A stretch of DNA of 64,000 nucleotides from a virus. The DNA lies in IMG/VR virus record IMGVR_UViG_3300047510_001118, positions 62,001 to 126,000 of that record. One strand, given 5' to 3'. Shown here piece by piece: positions 42,826 to 62,303 of the stretch. Each line of letters begins with the position of its first letter. Position 1 is the stretch's first letter. The notes below the pieces were generated by a model, which made no database searches, was not told where the DNA came from, and saw nothing but the letters and a program-made list of their open reading frames with translations. The position numbers were made by a program, and so were the translations under genes.

Positions 42826-42849
42826 GAGTATTTGAACTATGCCTATCAT

Positions 42850-43414
42850 CGGTACGGACCGGTCAAGAAAAATATTGCTCATATCCTAGGTTTACCAGTA
42901 GCGACCGGTTGGGAAAACAGTGGCCGGTAGTGACCGCCGGTGTCTACCACCGTGAACCGGTATAGACCGAAACAGTGTTTTCACCATAAAAATCCCCTAG
43001 ATCGATGATAAATTACCATTCGGTCGCGACCGGTTCAAGGGTCTTTTAACCCTAGACACGGTAGGGTCACAGAGGATCTAAGTTAGTGTACGCTAACTCT
43101 AGATGCGAATAGTTCTTATCTACAGCGAAAAAACCGTTGTTCAAAAGCCACATCGGTCTCGACCGGCGGGTTAGTTAGTGCTTACTTAGAGAGAAAGTTA
43201 GTTGGCGCTTACATTTCTAGAAATGACAGGCACCCTCCACGTCCACCCCCGGACTGCCCGATCGAACGCATGTAGGACTAAGGTGTTATTATTATCGCTC
43301 TCTTAGTGTTTGCAGTATACTGTCACTCAGAGATTCTGTCAACCGGTAGTGACCGAATAGTTGAGTAGACTCTAGGGCTTTTCGGTAGTGACCGGTTGAC
43401 ATCGGTAGCGACCG
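42850..43414. repeat. CGGT-N4-ACCG operator array
   Basis: Nine 12-bp inverted repeats spaced 10-190 bases apart. The spacers vary (ACGG, AGTG, ATAG, CGCG, CTCG, AGCG), while the arms are nearly fixed, as expected for a dimeric DNA-binding protein. The same site sits between -35 and -10 of promoters at 44333, 44858, 45329, 45947 and 50575. Confidence 0.8.
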
Positions 43415-43424
43415 GTGTTATACT
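43396..43424 (+). promoter_or_regulatory. sigma70 promoter with operator in spacer
   Basis: TTGACA 43396-43401, TATACT 43419-43424, 17-base spacer carrying the 43403 operator; a second operator ends two bases before the -35. Confidence 0.85.
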
Positions 43425-43456
43425 ATAGACTAGTTAATTAATTCAGGAGCGAACTG

Positions 43457-44158
43457 ATGAAACTGTTAAGTACTGCCAACCCAAAGATCCAGAAGGGTAC
43501 GAAACTGGGTTACTTGAGCTTTATCCTACACCTTGCGCCCGCAGATCTCAGTGGTCGTGAGACTTGCCCCAAGCGCACTCAAGGCTGCACCAGTGCATGT
43601 CTTAATACAGCGGGTCGTGGGGGTATGTTTAAACGGGGTGAAACGACTAACATGATCCAACAAGCTCGCATTCGTAAGACAAGGATGTTCTTTGAAGCTC
43701 GCGACGAATTCATGGCTCAACTAGAGAAAGACATTCGTTTAGGTATTAAGCAGGCCTCTAAGTTGGGATTGACACCCGTATTCCGTTTAAATGGTACCAG
43801 CGATCTTGCCTGGGAGAAGTACGGGATCATTGACAAGTTCCCAGGTGTACAGTTCTATGACTATACTAAGGTTTTGGGTCGCAAGGTCAGCCACTTAAAG
43901 AACTATCACTTGACGTTTTCAGCGGCAGATGGCAACGACAGAGATGTCCAAAAGGCCGTAGATCAAGGCATGAATGTGGCTGTGGTGTTCGATCGTTTGC
44001 CCGAAACTTACATGGGCAGGCGTGTGGAAGACGCTGATCAGCACGATCTGCGCTTCTTAGACCCTAAGGGTACAGTGGCAGGACTCAAAGCCAAGGGCCG
44101 TGCTAAGAAGGACACCACCGGATTTGTTCGTAAGACTATTATCTTGGAGGTTGCATAA
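43457..44158 (+). CDS. GP88-like phage/plasmid protein (233 aa)
   Basis: CPKRTQGCTSACLNTAGRGG and the following RIRKTRMFFE ... EFMAQL are the marks of a family found in phages and plasmids (gene product 88-like), of unknown biochemical role; the cysteines may bind metal. Ribosome site AGGAGCGAACTG. First gene behind the operator hub, so probably among the earliest expressed. Confidence 0.82.
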   Translation: MKLLSTANPKIQKGTKLGYLSFILHLAPADLSGRETCPKRTQGCTSACLNTAGRGGMFKRGETTNMIQQARIRKTRMFFEARDEFMAQLEKDIRLGIKQASKLGLTPVFRLNGTSDLAWEKYGIIDKFPGVQFYDYTKVLGRKVSHLKNYHLTFSAADGNDRDVQKAVDQGMNVAVVFDRLPETYMGRRVEDADQHDLRFLDPKGTVAGLKAKGRAKKDTTGFVRKTIILEVA

Positions 44159-44346
44159 TGGCTCAATATGATCCGCAGGACGATCTACTGTTAGAGGACT
44201 TGGAGTATCGTAAGCAGATGGCCGTGGCCACCCTAAACGATGCCATCAATCAGATCTATAACATAGAGGGCGATCGCTGGCAAATGGCCTATGATACCCT
44301 GGAAGCCGTCATGGGTAATCTCAAGATAGAGGTTGACAACCGGTAG
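44158..44346 (+). CDS. small phage protein (62 aa)
   Basis: TAATG coupling with the previous gene. Acidic, helical. Its last codons are also the -35 and operator of the next promoter, so promoter and coding constraint overlap. Confidence 0.75.
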   Translation: MAQYDPQDDLLLEDLEYRKQMAVATLNDAINQIYNIEGDRWQMAYDTLEAVMGNLKIEVDNR

Positions 44347-44362
44347 GGACCGGTGCTATACT
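44333..44362 (+). promoter_or_regulatory. sigma70 promoter with operator in spacer
   Basis: TTGACA 44333-44338, TATACT 44357-44362, 18-base spacer with CGGTAGGGACCG (44341-44352). Overlaps the 3' end of the previous gene. Confidence 0.85.
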
Positions 44363-44391
44363 ATAGGCTAGATAGTTAAAAAGGAGCGAAG

Positions 44392-44655
44392 ATGTTTACA
44401 GTTGAAATCTACAAGAAGGATGCCCGTACTAAAGTGGGTGAGCGCATGGTCCACAAGGCAGATCATAATACCGATAACCTCTCAATGCTAGAGCACTCTG
44501 TGAAGAATACTTGGCGTGCATCACAGGGCTATCGCTACGAGATCCACGAGACCTATGTAACCCGACGGAACTTGATGGGCGGTGCGGAGTTCAAAGAACG
44601 CTATGACACGCCCTACTATTGCTCACCCAGTTCTGAATCTTATTGGAGTATGTGA
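44392..44655 (+). CDS. small phage protein (87 aa)
   Basis: Ribosome site AAGGAGCGAAG. Strand/helix mix with an aromatic end (YYCSPSSESYWSM). Unknown. Confidence 0.78.
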   Translation: MFTVEIYKKDARTKVGERMVHKADHNTDNLSMLEHSVKNTWRASQGYRYEIHETYVTRRNLMGGAEFKERYDTPYYCSPSSESYWSM

Positions 44656-44656
44656 T

Positions 44657-44854
44657 ATGGCTACTGTAGACGGCGTAAGAGTACAGGTAGGGGACTGGGT
44701 CTCGTTTAAGAGCGACATAGAACAGTCGGGCAAGATCCAAGCAGTACTGTCGGGCAATAGGTTAGTGCTCACTAACCCTAACGGATTCCAGGGTGACTAC
44801 ATTGGTGGCTCGGAGACTACGATAGAACGTGCAGAGGACTGTTGGATCGAATAG
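44657..44854 (+). CDS. small SH3/KOW-like protein (65 aa)
   Basis: Start ATG 44657, one base after the previous stop. VRVQVGDWVSFKSDIEQSGKIQAVLSGNRLVLT reads as a small beta-barrel of the KOW/SH3 type. Possibly binds DNA or RNA polymerase. Inference only. Confidence 0.72.
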   Translation: MATVDGVRVQVGDWVSFKSDIEQSGKIQAVLSGNRLVLTNPNGFQGDYIGGSETTIERAEDCWIE

Positions 44855-44857
44855 TGG

Positions 44858-44887
44858 TTGACAACCGGTACTGACCGGTTGTATACT
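44858..44887 (+). promoter_or_regulatory. sigma70 promoter with operator in spacer
   Basis: TTGACA 44858-44863, TATACT 44882-44887, 18 bases, CGGTACTGACCG at 44866-44877. Confidence 0.84.
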
Positions 44888-44916
44888 GCAGTTATAGTAA
44901 ACAAAAAGGAGCGAAG

Positions 44917-45180
44917 ATGAATATCAGTACACTGCAAGCATTGGTAGAACAAGAGAATCGTTGGGGTAAATTGTTTGGGCGTCGTGAGCTCAGCCTGCTC
45001 CGCGCAGAAGATCGTCAGAAGATCGCTGGGATCATTGACAGCAGACTCAGCCCTGAGAACTTGACCTGCGATGGCGAGTTAAGCCGTGCAGAAGTGAACA
45101 GTCGCTATCGTCAATTGACCCGTGCGGCAGAAGAGTTGTTGAGCATTGACTCTAGTGTGACCTTTTACGAATTTAACTAA
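44917..45180 (+). CDS. small helical phage protein (87 aa)
   Basis: Ribosome site AAGGAGCGAAG. Mostly helical and charged (GRRELSLLRAEDRQK). Unknown. Confidence 0.77.
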   Translation: MNISTLQALVEQENRWGKLFGRRELSLLRAEDRQKIAGIIDSRLSPENLTCDGELSRAEVNSRYRQLTRAAEELLSIDSSVTFYEFN

Positions 45181-45190
45181 GGAGATTGAT

Positions 45191-45328
45191 ATGAACACCT
45201 ATCGTATTCAAGTGCGACTCAGTAACGGTATGGTCACTGAGACCGCTGTACAGGCTATTAGCCCTGCGATCGCCCGTGCCATGGTTGAGAGTCAGTATGG
45301 CGCAGGTTCCTTTTTGGGCTACCTTTAA
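45191..45328 (+). CDS. small phage protein (45 aa)
   Basis: ATG 45191 after AAGGAGATTGAT. One beta hairpin and a helix with ARAMVESQYG. Unknown. Confidence 0.72.
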   Translation: MNTYRIQVRLSNGMVTETAVQAISPAIARAMVESQYGAGSFLGYL

Positions 45329-45358
45329 TTGACAACCGGTCATGACCGGTAGTAAAGT
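45329..45358 (+). promoter_or_regulatory. sigma70 promoter with operator, leaderless
   Basis: TTGACA 45329-45334, TAAAGT 45353-45358 (18 bases), operator CGGTCATGACCG at 45337-45348. ATG 45365 follows six bases later. The only weak -10 of the set. Confidence 0.75.
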
Positions 45359-45364
45359 ATAACT

Positions 45365-45655
45365 ATGAAAGCAGTCAAACACACCGACGGAATACGCAGG
45401 ATCACCATGAAGATGGAGGTTGCTGTGGATGTTCGCCACTTGACCCTGTATGCACTGGACATGGTCAAAGGCGAGCAGTTCCCGGTGGACGTGATTTGTT
45501 CTGCTAACAAAAGGGAGATCTTTGCCCTAGCTCGAGCCAATATTCAGTCATTTGGTAAGGACACAGCAATTCAGAACGTGCCGCTGAGTCTAAACCCTGT
45601 AGAGATACAGCGAGCAATGGATCACGTTCGTAGTGTTTTTCCGGAGATTGATTAA
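45365..45655 (+). CDS. phage protein of unknown function (96 aa)
   Basis: Beta-rich start and a helical end. Leaderless start at the predicted +1. Unknown. Confidence 0.75.
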   Translation: MKAVKHTDGIRRITMKMEVAVDVRHLTLYALDMVKGEQFPVDVICSANKREIFALARANIQSFGKDTAIQNVPLSLNPVEIQRAMDHVRSVFPEID

Positions 45656-45960
45656 TGAATTCGATGCTTAGTTTGTATGGTAGACCTGTGGTCATGTTCG
45701 ATGTTAAGAACAAAGAACATCGTAGGATGGCACACCGGTTCTTGGTGGAACGTTCATGGGGTGGGTGCCCGGTGAGATTCGCCCTGCCCATTGGTGAGGG
45801 CAATGTCTACTCTATGGTCATGCGACTGTTGACCCAGTACTATTCTGCCAAAGAGTTTGGCCCTATTCCACAAGAGGACAGCGATCGTTGGCGTGAAGAT
45901 CTTGTGGCAAATACGCCACAGGTTGAATGGCGTAGAGCAACAGAGGTTGACAACCGGTAG
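45655..45960 (+). CDS. phage protein of unknown function (101 aa)
   Basis: TAATG coupling. SLYGRPVVMFDV, ERSWGGCPVRFAL; a small alpha/beta fold. Its 3' end again contains the next promoter. Confidence 0.75.
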   Translation: MNSMLSLYGRPVVMFDVKNKEHRRMAHRFLVERSWGGCPVRFALPIGEGNVYSMVMRLLTQYYSAKEFGPIPQEDSDRWREDLVANTPQVEWRRATEVDNR

Positions 45961-45976
45961 GGACCGGTGCTATACT
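45947..45976 (+). promoter_or_regulatory. sigma70 promoter with operator in spacer
   Basis: TTGACA 45947-45952, TATACT 45971-45976, 18 bases, CGGTAGGGACCG at 45955-45966. Confidence 0.85.
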
Positions 45977-46092
45977 AATGATACTGTGAAAGTTAAGGGT
46001 GGTTCTGGCAGTCCTAGGTAAAACCTTAATTCAGAGTCAAATCAAGTGCGTGCCAACTCTGAGCCCAACTATTTTTGAAAAGGAGCGAACCT
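45977..46092 (+). promoter_or_regulatory. long 5' leader with stem-loop
   Basis: An unusually long leader (about 110 bases; most here are 25-35). It includes TCAGAGT ... ACTCTGA, a 7-bp stem around an 18-base loop, shortly before the AAGGAGCGAA ribosome site. Could control translation. Confidence 0.45.
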
Positions 46093-46290
46093 ATGTATGA
46101 CATCGTAAAGAACCCAATCCCCCGTAGCGGTCTATTCACTACGCCTACCCTGGAAGAGATCCAACGTCACATCAGCGGTCTACCCAGCGGTGAGCAGGCA
46201 GTGGCCAGCATGGTGTTCATGTTCACGCTGAACGCCTGTAACAAACTCGTAGAAGACGAGATCCTCTCTAAAGATGTATTCGCACAGTAA
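46093..46290 (+). CDS. small helical phage protein (65 aa)
   Basis: ATG 46093 is fixed by AAGGAGCGAA. TPTLEEIQRHISGLPSGEQAV then a Met/Phe-rich helix. Unknown. Confidence 0.76.
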   Translation: MYDIVKNPIPRSGLFTTPTLEEIQRHISGLPSGEQAVASMVFMFTLNACNKLVEDEILSKDVFAQ

Positions 46291-46300
46291 GGAGCAGACT

Positions 46301-46576
46301 ATGAAGTCAGTACAAGAGATCAACTCAGCAATCATCCAAGGTACCTTTACCAATGACGAGCTCACTAGCATGATTGACGCTGTGAAGTTTGCACGTAGCC
46401 GTCTAAGTAACCAAATCAAATTCCAGGTGCGCAATGGTAGCACAGTGACATTCACTAGCAAACACGGTATGACTTATAGGGGCACTGTGGAGAAGGTGGC
46501 TATCAAATACGCCACAGTCAACACCCAAGTAGGTCGTTACAAGGTTCCTATGAACATGTTAGAGGTTGTTGCGTAA
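46301..46576 (+). CDS. conserved T4-like phage protein, KOW-like end (91 aa)
   Basis: Residues 1-35 helix (LTNDEL-type), then GSTVTFTSKHGMTYRGTVEKV, a small barrel. I recall homologues in cyanophages, function unknown. ATG 46301 after AAGGAGCAGACT. Confidence 0.78.
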   Translation: MKSVQEINSAIIQGTFTNDELTSMIDAVKFARSRLSNQIKFQVRNGSTVTFTSKHGMTYRGTVEKVAIKYATVNTQVGRYKVPMNMLEVVA

Positions 46577-46587
46577 ACGCAACACAC

Positions 46588-46599
46588 CGGTAACTACCG
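46588..46599. promoter_or_regulatory. operator CGGT-AACT-ACCG upstream of promoter
   Basis: A full palindrome one base before the -35 at 46601, with a single half-site (46616-46619) inside the spacer. So the operator has moved upstream at this promoter. Confidence 0.72.
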
Positions 46600-46600
46600 G

Positions 46601-46629
46601 TTGACAAGATAGCGGACCGGTAGTATACT
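46601..46629 (+). promoter_or_regulatory. sigma70 promoter
   Basis: TTGACA 46601-46606, TATACT 46624-46629, 17 bases. Confidence 0.83.
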
Positions 46630-46656
46630 ATAGGCTAAGTTAACAAGGAGCGAACT

Positions 46657-46926
46657 ATGTTAAACATCAGCAAAATCGTCAAAGTCTACAACGGACGCAT
46701 AGGTTGTATGTGCGGCTGTAACGGAAAATATTCCTATACCGAAGACGGTGCCAGGAACTATGGCCCGGGCTACGACGTCACAGACAGCATCAATGAGCGT
46801 AGTGTGCGCATCATTGCTAAGAAGATCCTCAGCAATCCGAATGTAGAGTTTGAAAACAATTATGCGTTCGTAGAGGATCGCGTTCGTAACAAAATGCAAA
46901 TGGTGGTTTTTAAGGAGCAGGCATGA
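46657..46926 (+). CDS. conserved phage protein (89 aa)
   Basis: VYNGRIGCMCGCNGKYSY has three near cysteines; then a mixed fold. Recalled from marine T4-like phages, unknown role. Ribosome site AAGGAGCGAACT. Confidence 0.8.
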   Translation: MLNISKIVKVYNGRIGCMCGCNGKYSYTEDGARNYGPGYDVTDSINERSVRIIAKKILSNPNVEFENNYAFVEDRVRNKMQMVVFKEQA

Positions 46927-47273
46927 TTAAATTTAATTGCGTATTAGAGACAGCCGGAAACGGCTACTGGTCGGACGTTGCTAAGTCTGTGAACGTCACT
47001 AAGATCAGCGTACCCTATGTCAACGAAGACGAGGACTTTGGTGAGCTCTGCGTTTACTTTGACAAGCAATGGGACACCCGCAAGGACGGGTTGATCTATA
47101 CGGACAGCCAGTTCCTTACAATGCTGAAAGACCGGCTCACAGAGTGTGGCTTTGATGCCACAGATGTAGACTACTCAGAGCAGGGCATGCAGGGCAACGA
47201 CTACGTGAGCTTAGACGTAGGCGAAAAGTTCCTAAAAAGTTGGTTCAATGTGGTTGACAAAGTTCTGGATTGA
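46923..47273 (+). CDS. phage protein of unknown function (116 aa)
   Basis: Four-base overlap upstream. Acidic with aromatic strands; the 3' end carries the next -35. Unknown. Confidence 0.77.
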   Translation: MIKFNCVLETAGNGYWSDVAKSVNVTKISVPYVNEDEDFGELCVYFDKQWDTRKDGLIYTDSQFLTMLKDRLTECGFDATDVDYSEQGMQGNDYVSLDVGEKFLKSWFNVVDKVLD

Positions 47274-47282
47274 GCTTATACT
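47254..47282 (+). promoter_or_regulatory. sigma70 promoter (no operator)
   Basis: TTGACA 47254-47259, TATACT 47277-47282, 17 bases. Confidence 0.83.
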
Positions 47283-47315
47283 ATTAAAACAGTAACAAAT
47301 TAAGGAGCGAAACTT

Positions 47316-47795
47316 ATGGCAACTCGAAGCAGAATTGGCGTCATGCACGGAGATGTGGTCAAACACGTTTACTGTCACTGGGACGGTTATTTGAGCAATA
47401 ATGGTCAAATCCTACAAGAACACTACGATTCAACAAAGGCCAACAACTTGGTCGCGCTGGGTGACATTAGCAGTCTGCGCCCCGACATTGGTGAGAAGCA
47501 CGACTTTAGCCGTTTGGACAGCCCCCTGTCTGAAGACGAGTACGAAAAGCTCTACGGCAACATGACCACGTTCTACGGACGTGATCGCGGCGAAGAGAAC
47601 ACAGGTTGGAAGGTCAGCCACTCGTTTGAGGACTTCTTGGATCACGCTGCCGGATGCGGTGCTGAATGGTACTACATTCTCAGAGACGGTGTTTGGTATT
47701 GTGGCAACTTGTACAGCAGTGATTCACGCCACTACAAGAACTTGGTAGTACTGCGTGACAGCATTGAGTTGGAGTTGGCAGAGGAGGCAGCATGA
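47316..47795 (+). CDS. conserved phage protein, MATRSRIG family (159 aa)
   Basis: Opens MATRSRIGVMHGD...YCHWDGYLSNNG and LVALGDISSLRP, a very widespread phage protein family with no known function. Ribosome site AAGGAGCGAAACT. Confidence 0.86.
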   Translation: MATRSRIGVMHGDVVKHVYCHWDGYLSNNGQILQEHYDSTKANNLVALGDISSLRPDIGEKHDFSRLDSPLSEDEYEKLYGNMTTFYGRDRGEENTGWKVSHSFEDFLDHAAGCGAEWYYILRDGVWYCGNLYSSDSRHYKNLVVLRDSIELELAEEAA

Positions 47796-48004
47796 AAGTT
47801 ATCGTAGAGACTGTGCTGACCCAAGAGCTTGAGGTTCCTGACAACTGGGATAGGTACGATGTGTTTGACTTCCTAGCAGAGAATCAATCCTTCCGTACAG
47901 CGTTCCAGGGTGTGAGCAACACGGACCAAACAGCCCGCATCATTGACGTGGGTGTGGTAACTGAAACAGTAACCGAAATGGGCGAGGAGGCCTTTGATGA
48001 GTAA
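47792..48004 (+). CDS. small acidic phage protein (70 aa)
   Basis: Four-base overlap. VETVLTQELEVPDNWDRYDVFDFLAENQ; Unknown. Confidence 0.76.
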   Translation: MKVIVETVLTQELEVPDNWDRYDVFDFLAENQSFRTAFQGVSNTDQTARIIDVGVVTETVTEMGEEAFDE

Positions 48005-48179
48005 AATGGCAGAATTGGATATGTATGCTTACGATATTGAGCAACTGTATATCGATGGCTTGACTGAAAAGAACATTGCCAAGACCCTGGACATCCCCGT
48101 AGAGTACGTCTACGCTTGGATGGAGATGAATGGTGTGTGCGACGAAGAGTTCAGCCCTAACGCAACTATTAACTCCTAA
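47997..48179 (+). CDS. helix-turn-helix protein (60 aa)
   Basis: QLYIDGLTEKNIAKTLDIPVEYVYAWMEMNG is a compact HTH of the sigma-region-4/resolvase kind. A candidate small DNA-binding regulator, for example of the CGGT-N4-ACCG sites, but without direct evidence. GGCGAGGAGG before ATG 47997. Confidence 0.75.
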   Translation: MSKMAELDMYAYDIEQLYIDGLTEKNIAKTLDIPVEYVYAWMEMNGVCDEEFSPNATINS

Positions 48180-48190
48180 GGCCCCGCTAT

Positions 48191-48418
48191 ATGCAGATCA
48201 CAATTCAGAACCTTAGCCCTGTTGAAATCGAAATTGCGGATGCGCTTTGGGCCTGCGAGGATTTGAATGAGGTCAGAGACTACGTTCTCAGACTGCCAAA
48301 ATCATTGAGAGATCGGGCTCATGCTCTTTATCATACAATGATCTACGAAGTTATTGATCAGGAAATGGATGTTAACGATCTAGAAATGGCGAATCAAGTC
48401 ATTGACAAATATCGTTAA
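48191..48418 (+). CDS. conserved T4-like phage protein (75 aa)
   Basis: ITIQNLSPVEIEIADALWACEDLNEV is a motif I recall in cyanophages. Helical. Unknown. Confidence 0.78.
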   Translation: MQITIQNLSPVEIEIADALWACEDLNEVRDYVLRLPKSLRDRAHALYHTMIYEVIDQEMDVNDLEMANQVIDKYR

Positions 48419-48429
48419 TCTGCTATAAT
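48402..48429 (+). promoter_or_regulatory. sigma70 promoter
   Basis: TTGACA 48402-48407, TATAAT 48424-48429, 16 bases; -35 inside the preceding gene's end. Confidence 0.8.
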
Positions 48430-48476
48430 AATAAGACGATGCGGAACAGCATCTCTTTAACTACAGAGGAATTAAA

Positions 48477-48752
48477 ATGAAATACACTTTTTCTAAAGAA
48501 AGCAAGACTTTTAAAGTTTTCAACGCTCTTTATCAGGGCGAGCGTTTGACACAGAGCCAAGCCGTTAAACGTTTCGGCGTTAAGAATTTGGCTGCTGAAG
48601 CAAGCCGTATCCGTCAAAACGGTTACGCTGTCTACGCAAAGAGCCGTACTGCTGGTAATGGTGTTACCGTTACTGAGTACGAAATGGGTAATCCAAGTCG
48701 TGAGATCGTTGCTTTAGGTTACAAAGCCAAAGCAATGGGCATCACTATCTAA
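48477..48752 (+). CDS. winged-HTH-like conserved phage protein (91 aa)
   Basis: FKVFNALYQGERLTQSQAVKRFGVKNLAAEASRIRQNGYAVYA reads as a winged helix with a recognition helix at AAEASRIRQ. Recalled from T4-like phages. Candidate transcription regulator. The anti-Shine-Dalgarno hairpins lie directly in its 3' region. Confidence 0.78.
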   Translation: MKYTFSKESKTFKVFNALYQGERLTQSQAVKRFGVKNLAAEASRIRQNGYAVYAKSRTAGNGVTVTEYEMGNPSREIVALGYKAKAMGITI

Positions 48753-48783
48753 GAATAAACTCGCCGCGATGGCGATGTGAAGT

Positions 48784-48868
48784 CCTAGGATTCGCTCCCC
48801 TAGGCAACGGCTGAACCGATTCGCTCCCGGGTAGGCCACCGGAAGGGTACTGTAAAAGGTACCCTTCC
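48784..48868 (+). ncRNA. candidate small RNA with two anti-Shine-Dalgarno loops
   Basis: Hairpin 1: CCTAGG (48784-48789) and CCTAGG (48799-48804) around loop ATTCGCTCC. Hairpin 2: stem GGC..CCG / CGG..GCC (48809-48837, with mismatches) around the same loop ATTCGCTCC (48819-48827). Hairpin 3: GGAAGGGTAC / GTACCCTTCC (48841-48868), a possible 3' end, though without a T-run. TTCGCTCC is the exact complement of the extended ribosome site GGAGCGAA. It may be released from the mRNA of the winged-HTH gene (promoter 48402). Confidence 0.62.
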
Positions 48869-48895
48869 ACCTTATGTGGGTATTCAAAATACCAG

Positions 48896-48924
48896 TTGAC
48901 AGTTTGGAGGATCGGCGCTATACT
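48896..48924 (+). promoter_or_regulatory. sigma70 promoter
   Basis: TTGACA 48896-48901, TATACT 48919-48924, 17 bases. Confidence 0.83.
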
Positions 48925-48954
48925 ATGCACATAGTAAGAAGTTAGGAGCGAAAG

Positions 48955-49239
48955 ATGGAAAAAGGAACTTGCCCAGTCTGTAATGGATCAACCCGTGTGC
49001 CCGCTGGGGATAACAAATATAAATCAGTTATCGCTGGCTACGACCAGGCTACTGATACTTTTGGTTGTACCAACTGCGGGGGTCAGTATATGTACGGTCG
49101 CCCAACAGGTGAAGTTCGCTTGAACAAGGCGGGAGAGCCCTGCACTCACAAATATTCTTCTAAGACAGTGGGACGGTGCTTGACGGAATACACCTGCGAG
49201 CATTGTGGGGATCGATTCCAGATTGACAGCGGTGACTGA
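48955..49239 (+). CDS. zinc-ribbon phage protein (94 aa)
   Basis: Three Cys pairs: CPVCNG, CTNCGG, CEHCGDRF, resembling DnaJ-type and rubredoxin-like zinc ribbons. VPAGDNKY...GYDQATDTF is a pattern recalled from phage proteins. Ribosome site AGGAGCGAAAG. Confidence 0.8.
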   Translation: MEKGTCPVCNGSTRVPAGDNKYKSVIAGYDQATDTFGCTNCGGQYMYGRPTGEVRLNKAGEPCTHKYSSKTVGRCLTEYTCEHCGDRFQIDSGD

Positions 49240-49251
49240 TTGTGCTATACT
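49223..49251 (+). promoter_or_regulatory. sigma70 promoter
   Basis: TTGACA 49223-49228, TATACT 49246-49251, 17 bases. Confidence 0.83.
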
Positions 49252-49281
49252 ATAGGTATAGTGAATGATAAGGAGCGAAAA

Positions 49282-49533
49282 ATGTTGACACTAGATAAAA
49301 TCCGTAAAATTGAATTCCGTGGCGAAGAGTTTGAACAGTTCCACGGCAGTCCGTTTGATCGCGGTGCAGCAGATAGTTATTACGGGAGACCTCAGGACCC
49401 GCATTGGTTTCCTGAAGGCACTTACAAGGGACGCCGCATTGACAGCCCTGACATGACTATGAAAGAACTTCGTGCTTACTTCGCAGGCTACGAATACAAC
49501 GAACAGCATGGCGACAAGAAGGACTGGGGTTAA
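49282..49533 (+). CDS. conserved phage protein, HGSPFDRG family (83 aa)
   Basis: FHGSPFDRGAADSYYGRPQDPHW and an end GYEYNEQHGDKKDWG are typical of a common phage family with no known role. ATG 49282 is fixed by AAGGAGCGAAAA. Confidence 0.83.
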   Translation: MLTLDKIRKIEFRGEEFEQFHGSPFDRGAADSYYGRPQDPHWFPEGTYKGRRIDSPDMTMKELRAYFAGYEYNEQHGDKKDWG

Positions 49534-49625
49534 TGGCTGACCTTGTAACCTATGTCCTACTTCGCATCATCCAGGTGGCGATACTGGTGTTTGCGATAGC
49601 AGTTTTTATCAACGGTTTTTTCTAA
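49533..49625 (+). CDS. 30-aa membrane peptide
   Basis: TAATG coupling, one membrane helix (residues 6-27). A tiny membrane protein such as lysis or exclusion peptides, unidentified. Confidence 0.62.
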   Translation: MADLVTYVLLRIIQVAILVFAIAVFINGFF

Positions 49626-49634
49626 GGAGCGAAT

Positions 49635-50258
49635 ATGCCTAATTGGTGCAATAACAGAGTGGTGATCAGCCACGAAGACTCAAGCAAGATGGAAGCCTTG
49701 GTAGAGGCTATCAAAGATGGTAAGTTCTGTAATCATGTGATTCCTGTGCCCGAAAGTCTACATATCGTAGCAGGCTCTGTAGGTGACCCTGATGAGCAGA
49801 AGAAGCTCGAAGAGGACACAGCCCGTAACCTAGAAGTCCACGGCTATGGCAACTGGTATGACTTCTGTGTGAATCGCTGGGGAACCAAGTGGGATGTAGA
49901 CCCTTACGATCCTACAGATGTTAAGGTTGAGAACAACACCATTGAGTTTGGTTTTGATTCAGCCTGGGCACCACCCGTGGGAGTCTACGATGAACTAGTG
50001 AATCAGGGCTTCGAAGTAGAGGCAACTTACTACGAGCCAGGCATGGCCTTTGTGGGTCGTTGGCATAATGGCTATGATGACTGCGTTGAGTTCGGCGGTG
50101 AGACCTCTGCGACTGTGCGTGATGTCATCGGAGAAGAGCTAGATGATGAGTATGGTATCTCAGAGACCATGGCTGAATACGAAGAGATGGACAAGGACGA
50201 AACTACCCAGTGGTATGAAGAGGGTGTGGAATCCAAAGGTTTAGAGCCACACAAATAA
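49635..50258 (+). CDS. YubB/DUF1281-type ferredoxin-like protein (207 aa)
   Basis: MPNWCNNRVVI, YDFCVNRWGTKWD, FDSAWAPPVGVYDEL and ATYYEPGMAFVGRW are in the order of the YubB ferredoxin-like/Api92 family, common in plasmids and phages, function unknown. Ribosome site AAGGAGCGAAT. Confidence 0.83.
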   Translation: MPNWCNNRVVISHEDSSKMEALVEAIKDGKFCNHVIPVPESLHIVAGSVGDPDEQKKLEEDTARNLEVHGYGNWYDFCVNRWGTKWDVDPYDPTDVKVENNTIEFGFDSAWAPPVGVYDELVNQGFEVEATYYEPGMAFVGRWHNGYDDCVEFGGETSATVRDVIGEELDDEYGISETMAEYEEMDKDETTQWYEEGVESKGLEPHK

Positions 50259-50259
50259 C

Positions 50260-50310
50260 AGCCACTAGGCCCTGCAACACGCCTGGGCACTTCGCTGGTG
50301 TGGCTTTTTT
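50260..50310 (+). terminator. terminator with long-arm stem
   Basis: AGCCAC (50260) pairs with GTGGCT (50300-50305) followed by six T; an alternative pairing uses AGCCACAC at 50245 inside the gene's end. Confidence 0.62.
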
Positions 50311-50321
50311 ACAACAGGAAT

Positions 50322-50345
50322 ACCCTACTTAACCGTAGGGTTTTT
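50322..50345 (+). terminator. rho-independent terminator
   Basis: ACCCTAC, TTAACC loop, GTAGGGT, then five T. Second stop in tandem, isolating the next promoter. Confidence 0.78.
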
Positions 50346-50356
50346 CTGCTTTTTGG

Positions 50357-50385
50357 TTGACGGTTTGGGTGGCCCCTGCTATACT
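50357..50385 (+). promoter_or_regulatory. sigma70 promoter
   Basis: TTGACG 50357-50362, TATACT 50380-50385, 17 bases. The spacer GTTTGGGTGGCCCCTGC resembles that of 52236. Confidence 0.8.
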
Positions 50386-50412
50386 ATAGAAACTGTAACA
50401 AAGGAGCGAGCA

Positions 50413-50565
50413 ATGCTGACACTGAAAGACGCTAAGAAACTGTGTGGGATGGATCCGCGCACTACGGCACGTTGGTATGCGCAGGGCTACTATATGAAGG
50501 CTGACGGACGCTGGTACATTACTGTAGGCGGTGTAGAGTATGTGAAATACTACACCGGAAACTAG
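50413..50565 (+). CDS. small MerR-like HTH protein (50 aa)
   Basis: LTLKDAKKLCGMDPRTTARWYAQG reads as a helix-turn-helix of the excisionase/MerR type, then a wing (WYITVGGVEYVKYY). A candidate DNA-binding regulator. ATG 50413 after AAGGAGCGAGCA. Confidence 0.75.
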   Translation: MLTLKDAKKLCGMDPRTTARWYAQGYYMKADGRWYITVGGVEYVKYYTGN

Positions 50566-50574
50566 GGTTTTTGG

Positions 50575-50604
50575 TTGACAACCGGTAGTGACCGGTGCTA
50601 TAAT
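50575..50604 (+). promoter_or_regulatory. sigma70 promoter with operator, leaderless
   Basis: TTGACA 50575-50580, TATAAT 50599-50604, 18 bases, CGGTAGTGACCG at 50583-50594. ATG 50611 starts after six bases. Confidence 0.84.
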
Positions 50605-51956: not shown

Positions 51957-52034
51957 GGGCCTCTAGCTCATGTTGGTTAGAGCAGTGGACTCATAATCCA
52001 TTGGTGCGGAGTTCGACTCTCCGGGGGCCCACCA
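51957..52034 (+). tRNA. tRNA-Met or tRNA-Ile2 (anticodon CAT)
   Basis: Acceptor GGGCCTC/GGGGCCC, D stem GCTC/GAGC, anticodon loop CTCATAA, T arm CGGAG/CTCCG, CCA encoded at 52032-52034. CAU is elongator Met unless modified to lysidine for Ile. Confidence 0.9.
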
Positions 52035-52038
52035 GATC

Positions 52039-52123
52039 GCGACTGTGGTGAAATCGGTAGACACAAGAGACTTAAAATCTCTCGCTGCAAGGCGTGCCAG
52101 TTCGATTCTGGCCAGTCGCACCA
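52039..52123 (+). tRNA. tRNA-Leu (anticodon TAA)
   Basis: Acceptor GCGACTG/CAGTCGC, anticodon stem AGAGA/TCTCT with loop CTTAAAA, long variable arm, TTCGATT loop, CCA encoded. Confidence 0.92.
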
Positions 52124-52129
52124 AACAAT

Positions 52130-52206
52130 CTGCCCGTAGCTCAACCGGATAGAGCAACGGCCTTCTAAGCCGTAGGTTGGGGGTTCGATTCCCTCCGGGC
52201 AGGCCA
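52130..52206 (+). tRNA. tRNA-Arg (anticodon TCT)
   Basis: Acceptor CTGCCCG/CGGGCAG, D stem GCTC/GAGC, anticodon stem ACGGC/GCCGT with loop CTTCTAA, G discriminator, CCA encoded. Confidence 0.92.
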
Positions 52207-61796: not shown

Positions 61797-62303
61797 TTAT
61801 AATAACTTGTAATGGTTGATAATTTCGCTCTGTCTACTAATGTCTTTAGTAAAAAACGCACACATAGGTTTTGGCCCATCAGTTAACGGTACGCTGAGCA
61901 ATTGATTATTTTTCATTTTAGGAAAGTACCATTTAACATCACTGTAAATGTTTACTATTTCAATCTGAGCATACTCGTGTTTAAATGCGCTCAATGGATT
62001 AAAAATAAATGCTTCAAATCCTCTGTCGTTTAAACTAGTCAAAGGTAGAACTTCTAACTCGTTTCCGCACTCACTGTCCCCTACTGCTATGCTCCAATCT
62101 ATAGGCATAGTTACTTCGTTGCCTCCAATGTTTAATACCATTGCTGGACTATTAAAACTTTCTAAAAAGATTAATGGAATAAAAAAGAAATCGGGATTAT
62201 TTGGATCGTTGTTATCTAGAACACTAAATCTAATATCTTCCTCAACTTCATCTGGCATTTTTGATAAATCAAATGTCTTGTTGTCTATTGTTAAAATTAA
62301 CAT
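61797..62303 (-). CDS. conserved phage protein (168 aa)
   Basis: LNDRGFEAFIFNPLSAF, IEIVNIYSDVKWYFPKMKNNQLL and PMCAFFTKDISRQSEIINH match, from memory, a family in marine T4-like phages next to uvsW. Unknown role; RNA-like beta fold is possible. Confidence 0.8.
   Translation of the reverse strand: MLILTIDNKTFDLSKMPDEVEEDIRFSVLDNNDPNNPDFFFIPLIFLESFNSPAMVLNIGGNEVTMPIDWSIAVGDSECGNELEVLPLTSLNDRGFEAFIFNPLSAFKHEYAQIEIVNIYSDVKWYFPKMKNNQLLSVPLTDGPKPMCAFFTKDISRQSEIINHYKLL

Follow-up and report, generated by a model that had tools for sequence, protein, structure and literature searches.

Phage operators and early transcription

In phage lambda, CI and Cro act at pR and pL through sites that lie in and across the −35 and −10 elements of early promoters, with autoregulation and divergent promoters. 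T4 relies mainly on changes to sigma-70 and the polymerase for its early-to-middle switch (AsiA/MotA, Alc), and not on an operator-binding early repressor. The temperate mycobacteriophages L5 and Bxb1 have an immunity repressor with 20–30 operators or stoperators spread genome-wide and oriented with transcription (PMC6550527). The locus described here lies in a 64,000-nucleotide stretch of viral DNA (IMG/VR record IMGVR_UViG_3300047510_001118, positions 62,001 to 126,000; hereafter the window) and shares features with each of these systems. A 12-bp palindrome, CGGT-N4-ACCG, recurs at a block of its early-type promoters. Comparison with related phages suggests, with a probability of about 0.75, that a 96-amino-acid protein encoded in the same block reads this palindrome, most likely as an autoregulated repressor.

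As in L5 and Bxb1, one phage protein would serve numerous short sites that lie partly in early promoters and in many cases elsewhere, and related phages have distinct site consensuses matched to their own protein. However, the sites here are palindromic and confined to 8 kb, and those away from promoters occur in one non-coding region only, a distribution that differs from that of stoperators. In addition, the phage is T4-like, no integrase was found, and the protein matches no described family. The likeness to lambda CI and Cro lies in operators placed in or across early promoters, in the predicted autoregulation and in the divergent promoters, whereas many dispersed promoters are involved here, no CI/Cro-like helix-turn-helix (HTH) is recognised and there is no evidence of lysogeny. 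The phage shares with T4 its superfamily and the task of leaving early transcription, but an operator-binding early repressor is proposed in place of an altered sigma-70 or polymerase.

A palindromic operator at early-type promoters

The window contains 14 exact copies of CGGT-N4-ACCG where 0.23 would be expected, and none of 100 shuffles yields as many. All copies in the window lie within 42850–50594. The sequence-only reading that drew attention to this block placed seven of them, at 43403, 44341, 44866, 45337, 45955, 50583 and 46588, and each coordinate is exact. It also proposed a search of the remaining genome. The 278,126-base contig contains 16 copies in total, and the two outside the block are each single. 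The copy at 208902 was considered as an operator and rejected, being the stem of a terminator-like hairpin, AAAAAAACCGGTCAAAACCGGTTAAAAA. The operator thus recurs above chance at several early promoters, as in a phage operator/repressor regulon.

Among all 256 four-letter half-sites at gap 4, clustering is strongest for CGGT (14 in 8 kb; the next, TTTT, has 8), and gap 4 is the sole gap enriched for this half-site. The full site is ACCGGT-N4-ACCGGT, a pair of self-complementary ACCGGT hexamers 10 bp, or one helical turn, apart. From 91 sites in the seven phages known to carry the operator, the window's included, the extended consensus is ACCGGT-[A/C]NN[G/T]-ACCGGT.

The position of the operator at promoters is nearly fixed. 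In the seven operator phages its centre lies almost exclusively at one of three distances upstream of the −10: 10.5, 20.5 or 30.5 bp. Counted from the first −35 base, these registers are +12.5 (17-bp spacer) or +13.5 (18-bp spacer), +2.5 and −7.5. They differ in steps of one helical turn and are in phase with the −10, which places operators on the spacer, on the −35 itself or immediately 5′ of it. The −35 and −10 elements of these promoters are near consensus, with 17–18-bp spacing. Two full hexamers between the −35 and −10 take up 18 bp, and promoters that hold both use a spacer of this length; their operator-less neighbours mostly have 17.

The gp88 promoter of the window (43381–43424, + strand) has the arrangement TTCGGT-N4-ACCGGT-TGAC-ATCGGT-N4-ACCGGT around its −35 at 43396, followed by TATACT at 43419, and its four hexamers keep an unbroken 10-bp phase from 43381 to 43416. 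Operators fill the 18-bp spacers of the + strand promoters at 44333–44362 (operator 44339–44354), 44858–44887 (44864–44879), 45947–45976 (45953–45968) and 50575–50604 (50581–50596). The promoter of the candidate regulator itself (45329–45358, + strand) reads TTGACA-ACCGGTCATGACCGGTAG-TAAAGT, with the operator at 45335–45350. At 46586–46629 (+ strand) the operator (46586–46601) abuts the −35 at 46601, an additional half-site, ACCGGT, lies in the spacer (46616–46621) and the −10 is TATACT. The sites at 43344 and 43383 adjoin their promoters in the same way, with centres 7.5 bp upstream of the first −35 base. The TATACT −10 and the ribosome site GGAGCGAA, reported in the sequence-only reading for operator promoters, are present there, including TATACT at 44333, 44858 and 45947. 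They are not specific to operators, as the operator-less promoters of the block share both, and the −10s at 50599 (TATAAT) and 45353 (a weak TAAAGT) differ. Two promoters outside the regulon, G000 C1 44527 (− strand) and window 53008 (+ strand), have other spacer palindromes, CCACCTACGGGTGG and GCCCCCAGGGGGC.

A protein that follows the operator

With gp88 as the marker gene, 80 gp88-family loci were taken from IMG/VR. All share the early-promoter array and few have the operator; CGGTN4ACCG occurs in none of 848 promoters of operator-less relatives. When all open reading frames (ORFs) of the seven operator phages are compared with 75 operator-less gp88 loci, the 96-amino-acid ORF at 45365–45655 (+ strand) is found in 7/7 and 0/75, respectively, and is the sole real ORF so distributed. 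A protein scan of 2.9 million IMG/VR viral contigs retrieved six contigs, identical to the set with clustered sites from an independent DNA-pattern scan. The single-hit contigs of the latter scan have at most three sites each, similar to a reversed-pattern control.

On the gp88 tree the seven operator phages all sit on branches of their own, each well supported, which forces seven changes, and a single operator clade is rejected (p-AU, approximately unbiased test, 6e-69). Gene and operator agree in 7/7 independent pairs (sign test, p 0.016, the minimum possible). In the window and in L102, the operator promoter stands directly upstream of the 96-amino-acid gene, which in the window starts 7 bases past the weak −10. 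In the other five phages the gene lies inside a run of genes downstream of an operator promoter. A phage-encoded protein thus appears linked with the operator and has its gene downstream of one, as expected of a regulon. Comparative evidence gives good support to the earlier proposal that the early-type promoters of this block share one switch and that this switch forms a feedback loop. In operator-less phages, the slot of the 96-amino-acid gene was considered as the place of an alternative regulator; this was rejected, as the gap holds other block genes, mainly a homolog of 49635–50258. No convincing match to the family was found among 50,697 records of isolated phages, and no description of it in an open-access literature library.

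Distant homologs with a different operator

Profile-seeded scans extended the family to 53 further viral loci (30–38% identity) and one metagenome-assembled bacterial contig. Many of the 53 loci are near-copies, and counts of sites therefore refer to distinct promoter sequences, not loci. None of these loci has CGGTN4ACCG. Instead, a CAAGACGTCTTG-like site (up to three mismatches) is present in 66 of 137 distinct promoters, against a mean of 2.2 and a maximum of 5 in shuffled sequences. Nearly all of these sites (65/66) keep to the same register, with their centre at +12.5 or +13.5, and 51 of the 53 homologs have one in their own promoter. In operator-less gp88 relatives, CAAGACGTCTTG sites occur at chance level only. 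The distant homologs probably belong to another phage group, because Gp23 was not found in five of their contigs, which may be fragments. The best reading of both sets is that the 96-amino-acid family would be an undescribed, autoregulated repressor of early genes with changeable operator specificity.

Fold and family of the 96-amino-acid protein

The protein matches no Pfam, PHROG or PDB family. Its AlphaFold2 monomer model combines N-terminal strands with five helices, and a conserved basic strand at the N terminus precedes the helices. Searches with two AlphaFold2 models, using Foldseek (PDB, BFVD) and VIA-align, found no solved relative. The sole near structural match is an unnamed viral protein, A0A7T3U7F0 (TM score 0.78, E 0.029).

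The ribbon-helix-helix repressors MetJ, Arc and CopG, which read short boxes about one turn apart and fold as a strand and two helices in an intertwined dimer, resemble this system in their self-complementary half-sites with a 10-bp period and in an N-terminal basic strand before the helices. A MetJ or ribbon-helix-helix identity is tempting because of this strand and because the core of the distant operator is AGACGTCT, the MetJ box. However, the 96-amino-acid protein has no detectable homology to these proteins: the E. coli MetJ profile scores no better than shuffled MetJ and there is no Pfam match, so that the identity finds no support by sequence. As no relation to MetJ or any other family was found by sequence or fold, the protein is best regarded as a new family without a recognised fold.

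Proposed mechanism and alternative explanations

Soon after infection, the near-consensus promoters would be transcribed by the sigma-70 RNA polymerase of the host, and the 96-amino-acid protein would be one of the early products. It may then bind ACCGGT hexamers set at a spacing of one helical turn, in pairs or in groups of up to four. From these positions in the spacer, on the −35 or immediately 5′ of it, the protein would exclude polymerase from the promoters of the block and also shut its own promoter. The divergent promoter upstream of gp88 would likewise be blocked; transcription from it runs leftward across a conserved leader RNA and across origin-like DNA with an operator array. The outcome would be a self-limiting early pulse; its timing, and any effect on the origin-like region, are presumptive. 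Repression by polymerase exclusion is favoured because the promoters are of near-consensus sigma-70 type, the sites lie over or beside the −35 and spacer, and the regulator's gene appears to be autoregulated.

Several points weigh against this reading or limit it. Direct binding of the 96-amino-acid protein to the operator is a prediction, and repression is deduced from the position of the sites, some of which are centred near −42.5, also a classical activator position. The protein has no DNA-binding domain recognisable by sequence, and no solved structure significantly matches its AlphaFold2 monomer (predicted local distance difference test, pLDDT, 86.5). With only seven known operator phages, the value obtained is the lowest that the sign test can give. 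Absence of the gene was judged from loci with up to 8 kb of flank and from pattern-seeded scans, and diverged copies may be missed. The compared phages are metagenomic contigs, most of them fragments; they look mosaic, and the gp88 tree follows one locus.

The sites near −42.5 recall class II activators and the slightly long 18-bp spacer superficially recalls MerR, so that the same protein might bind the operators and activate or retime the promoters. This is unlikely, since there are three registers, one of them over the −35, and promoters near consensus need no activator. MerR regulation involves a MerR-family protein and a 19–20-bp spacer with a palindrome, whereas the spacers here are 17 or 18 bp and no MerR match was found. 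It is quite improbable that the sites are those of a transcription factor of the host, through which the phage exploits or senses the state of its host, with the 96-amino-acid gene as a companion. The promoters are indeed of sigma-70 type, and an operator type that varies between relatives could follow hosts. However, gene and site co-occur exactly on seven branches, a changed site accompanies the diverged members of the gene family, and the operator promoter, searched for as an exact pattern only, is absent from 84,980 bacterial and archaeal genomes.

Array sites often 24–46 bp apart in origin-like DNA, with DnaA-box clusters in some relatives, might instead act primarily in replication or partition, as iterons or a centromere, with those at promoters as a by-product. 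Such an origin of the sites is very improbable: most of them are at promoters in fixed register, no ParA was found, the origin-like region is also present in operator-free relatives, and the sites of the distant homologs were found at promoters. Least to be expected is that another phage protein binds the sites. The sequence-only reading had suggested a small HTH protein of the block, and the predicted winged-HTH (HTH_39) protein at 48477–48752 (+ strand) does occur in 5/6 other operator phages. However, its homologs are also found in 16/75 operator-less relatives, 5 of which have neither operator type, and it is missing from the shortest operator contig (G002, 4.7 kb, possibly cut). An HTH_23-like protein (47994–48179) is similarly present in 40/75 operator-less relatives. 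Of the small HTH proteins of the block, these two could be compared, and neither follows the operator; the third, HTH_17-like, lies at 50413–50565.

The non-coding region upstream of gp88

Five exact sites and one degenerate site lie in the non-coding stretch 42826–43456, upstream of gp88, none of them at a recognisable promoter. They form an array at 42848–43167 (sites 42848, 42894 (degenerate), 42923, 42956, 43019 and 43152), and the remaining operator contigs show the same layout wherever they extend into this region. To its right lies the divergent leftward promoter (43314–43357, − strand), with a −35 at 43342–43337, a 17-bp spacer, TATACT at 43319–43314 and an operator at 43342–43357, just upstream of the −35. 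A divergent operator promoter of the same layout is found in five other operator contigs. Downstream of this promoter is the conserved RNA-leader motif GTTCGA..GGGGGTGGACGTGGAGGGTGCCTG (43228–43269, − strand). It has 42 copies in gp88 relatives, with invariant TCGA and GGG-TGGACG and compensatory changes in an inner 3-bp stem, and no match in Rfam.

Clusters of the DnaA-box-like sequence TTATNCACA are found upstream of gp88 in relatives both with and without operators (L046, L041, L084, L047, L061, L091, L101, L107 and L056). They suggest an origin of the host-DnaA type in relatives of a T4-like phage. Because these clusters occur irrespective of operators, and the leader is present in many relatives, the non-coding region looks origin-like and older than the operators; its identity as an origin is putative.

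Genes of the block and the phage

The first gene behind the array encodes a Gp88 family protein (PF17338, E 1.6e-40; 43457–44158, + strand). On the same strand, 87-amino-acid genes follow the promoters at 44333 (44392–44655) and 44858 (44917–45180), and an 89-amino-acid gene (46657–46926) follows that with its −35 at 46601. The label of takeover genes, given to the block in the sequence-only reading, is unproven, because most block genes have no known function. Three tRNA genes (Met, Leu and Arg; window 51957–52206) lie directly 3′ of the operator block. Elsewhere, at 12–29 kb of the window, the − strand holds a run of radical-SAM-like and sugar-nucleotide-type genes, judged by eye from translations.

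This giant phage had been called T4-like, and its contig indeed encodes a T4-type major capsid protein, Gp23 (E 5.8e-99, G000:205176-206138). Neither an integrase (PF00589) nor a ParA (PF13614) match was found in the 278-kb contig, which may be incomplete. A lambda-like lysogeny switch is therefore unsupported.

Possibly exchangeable operator states

In 20 of the relatives, promoters of this kind contain a different spacer motif, GGTAAAACC, which is never combined with CGGTN4ACCG among the promoters of one locus. It recurs in many early promoters of L049, L058, L062, L072, L080, L083, L087, L088, L107, L110, L113 and L116. No gene within 8 kb tracks GGTAAAACC fully. The best signal is a small GIY-YIG-like gene upstream of gp88, recognised by eye, which is present in 8/14 strong cases and 0/55 loci without the motif (seen in L110, L113, L083, L058 and L080). 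Loci with neither operator type (e.g., L044, L045, L060 and L109) often have TTTGGGC or its complement GCCCAAA in their spacers, possibly another shared promoter element.

Phages of this group thus have CGGTN4ACCG with the 96-amino-acid protein, GGTAAAACC, or neither. The mutual exclusion of the motifs and their scattered distribution on the tree suggest interchangeable operator states. Tentatively, and at rather long odds, operator and regulator may form an exchangeable module in otherwise lytic large phages, whose mutually exclusive types are gained and lost repeatedly, and heterotypic switches could decide which co-infecting phage is silenced, without lysogeny.

By comparison alone, a candidate regulator family and its DNA target can be named in two distinct sets of uncultured phages, and two matched protein-operator pairs are now available. 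If operator state is exchanged between lytic phages, this raises the prospect of repressor-type competition outside lysogeny. In such immunity-like competition, the protein family in charge would read DNA in a way that has so far escaped recognition.

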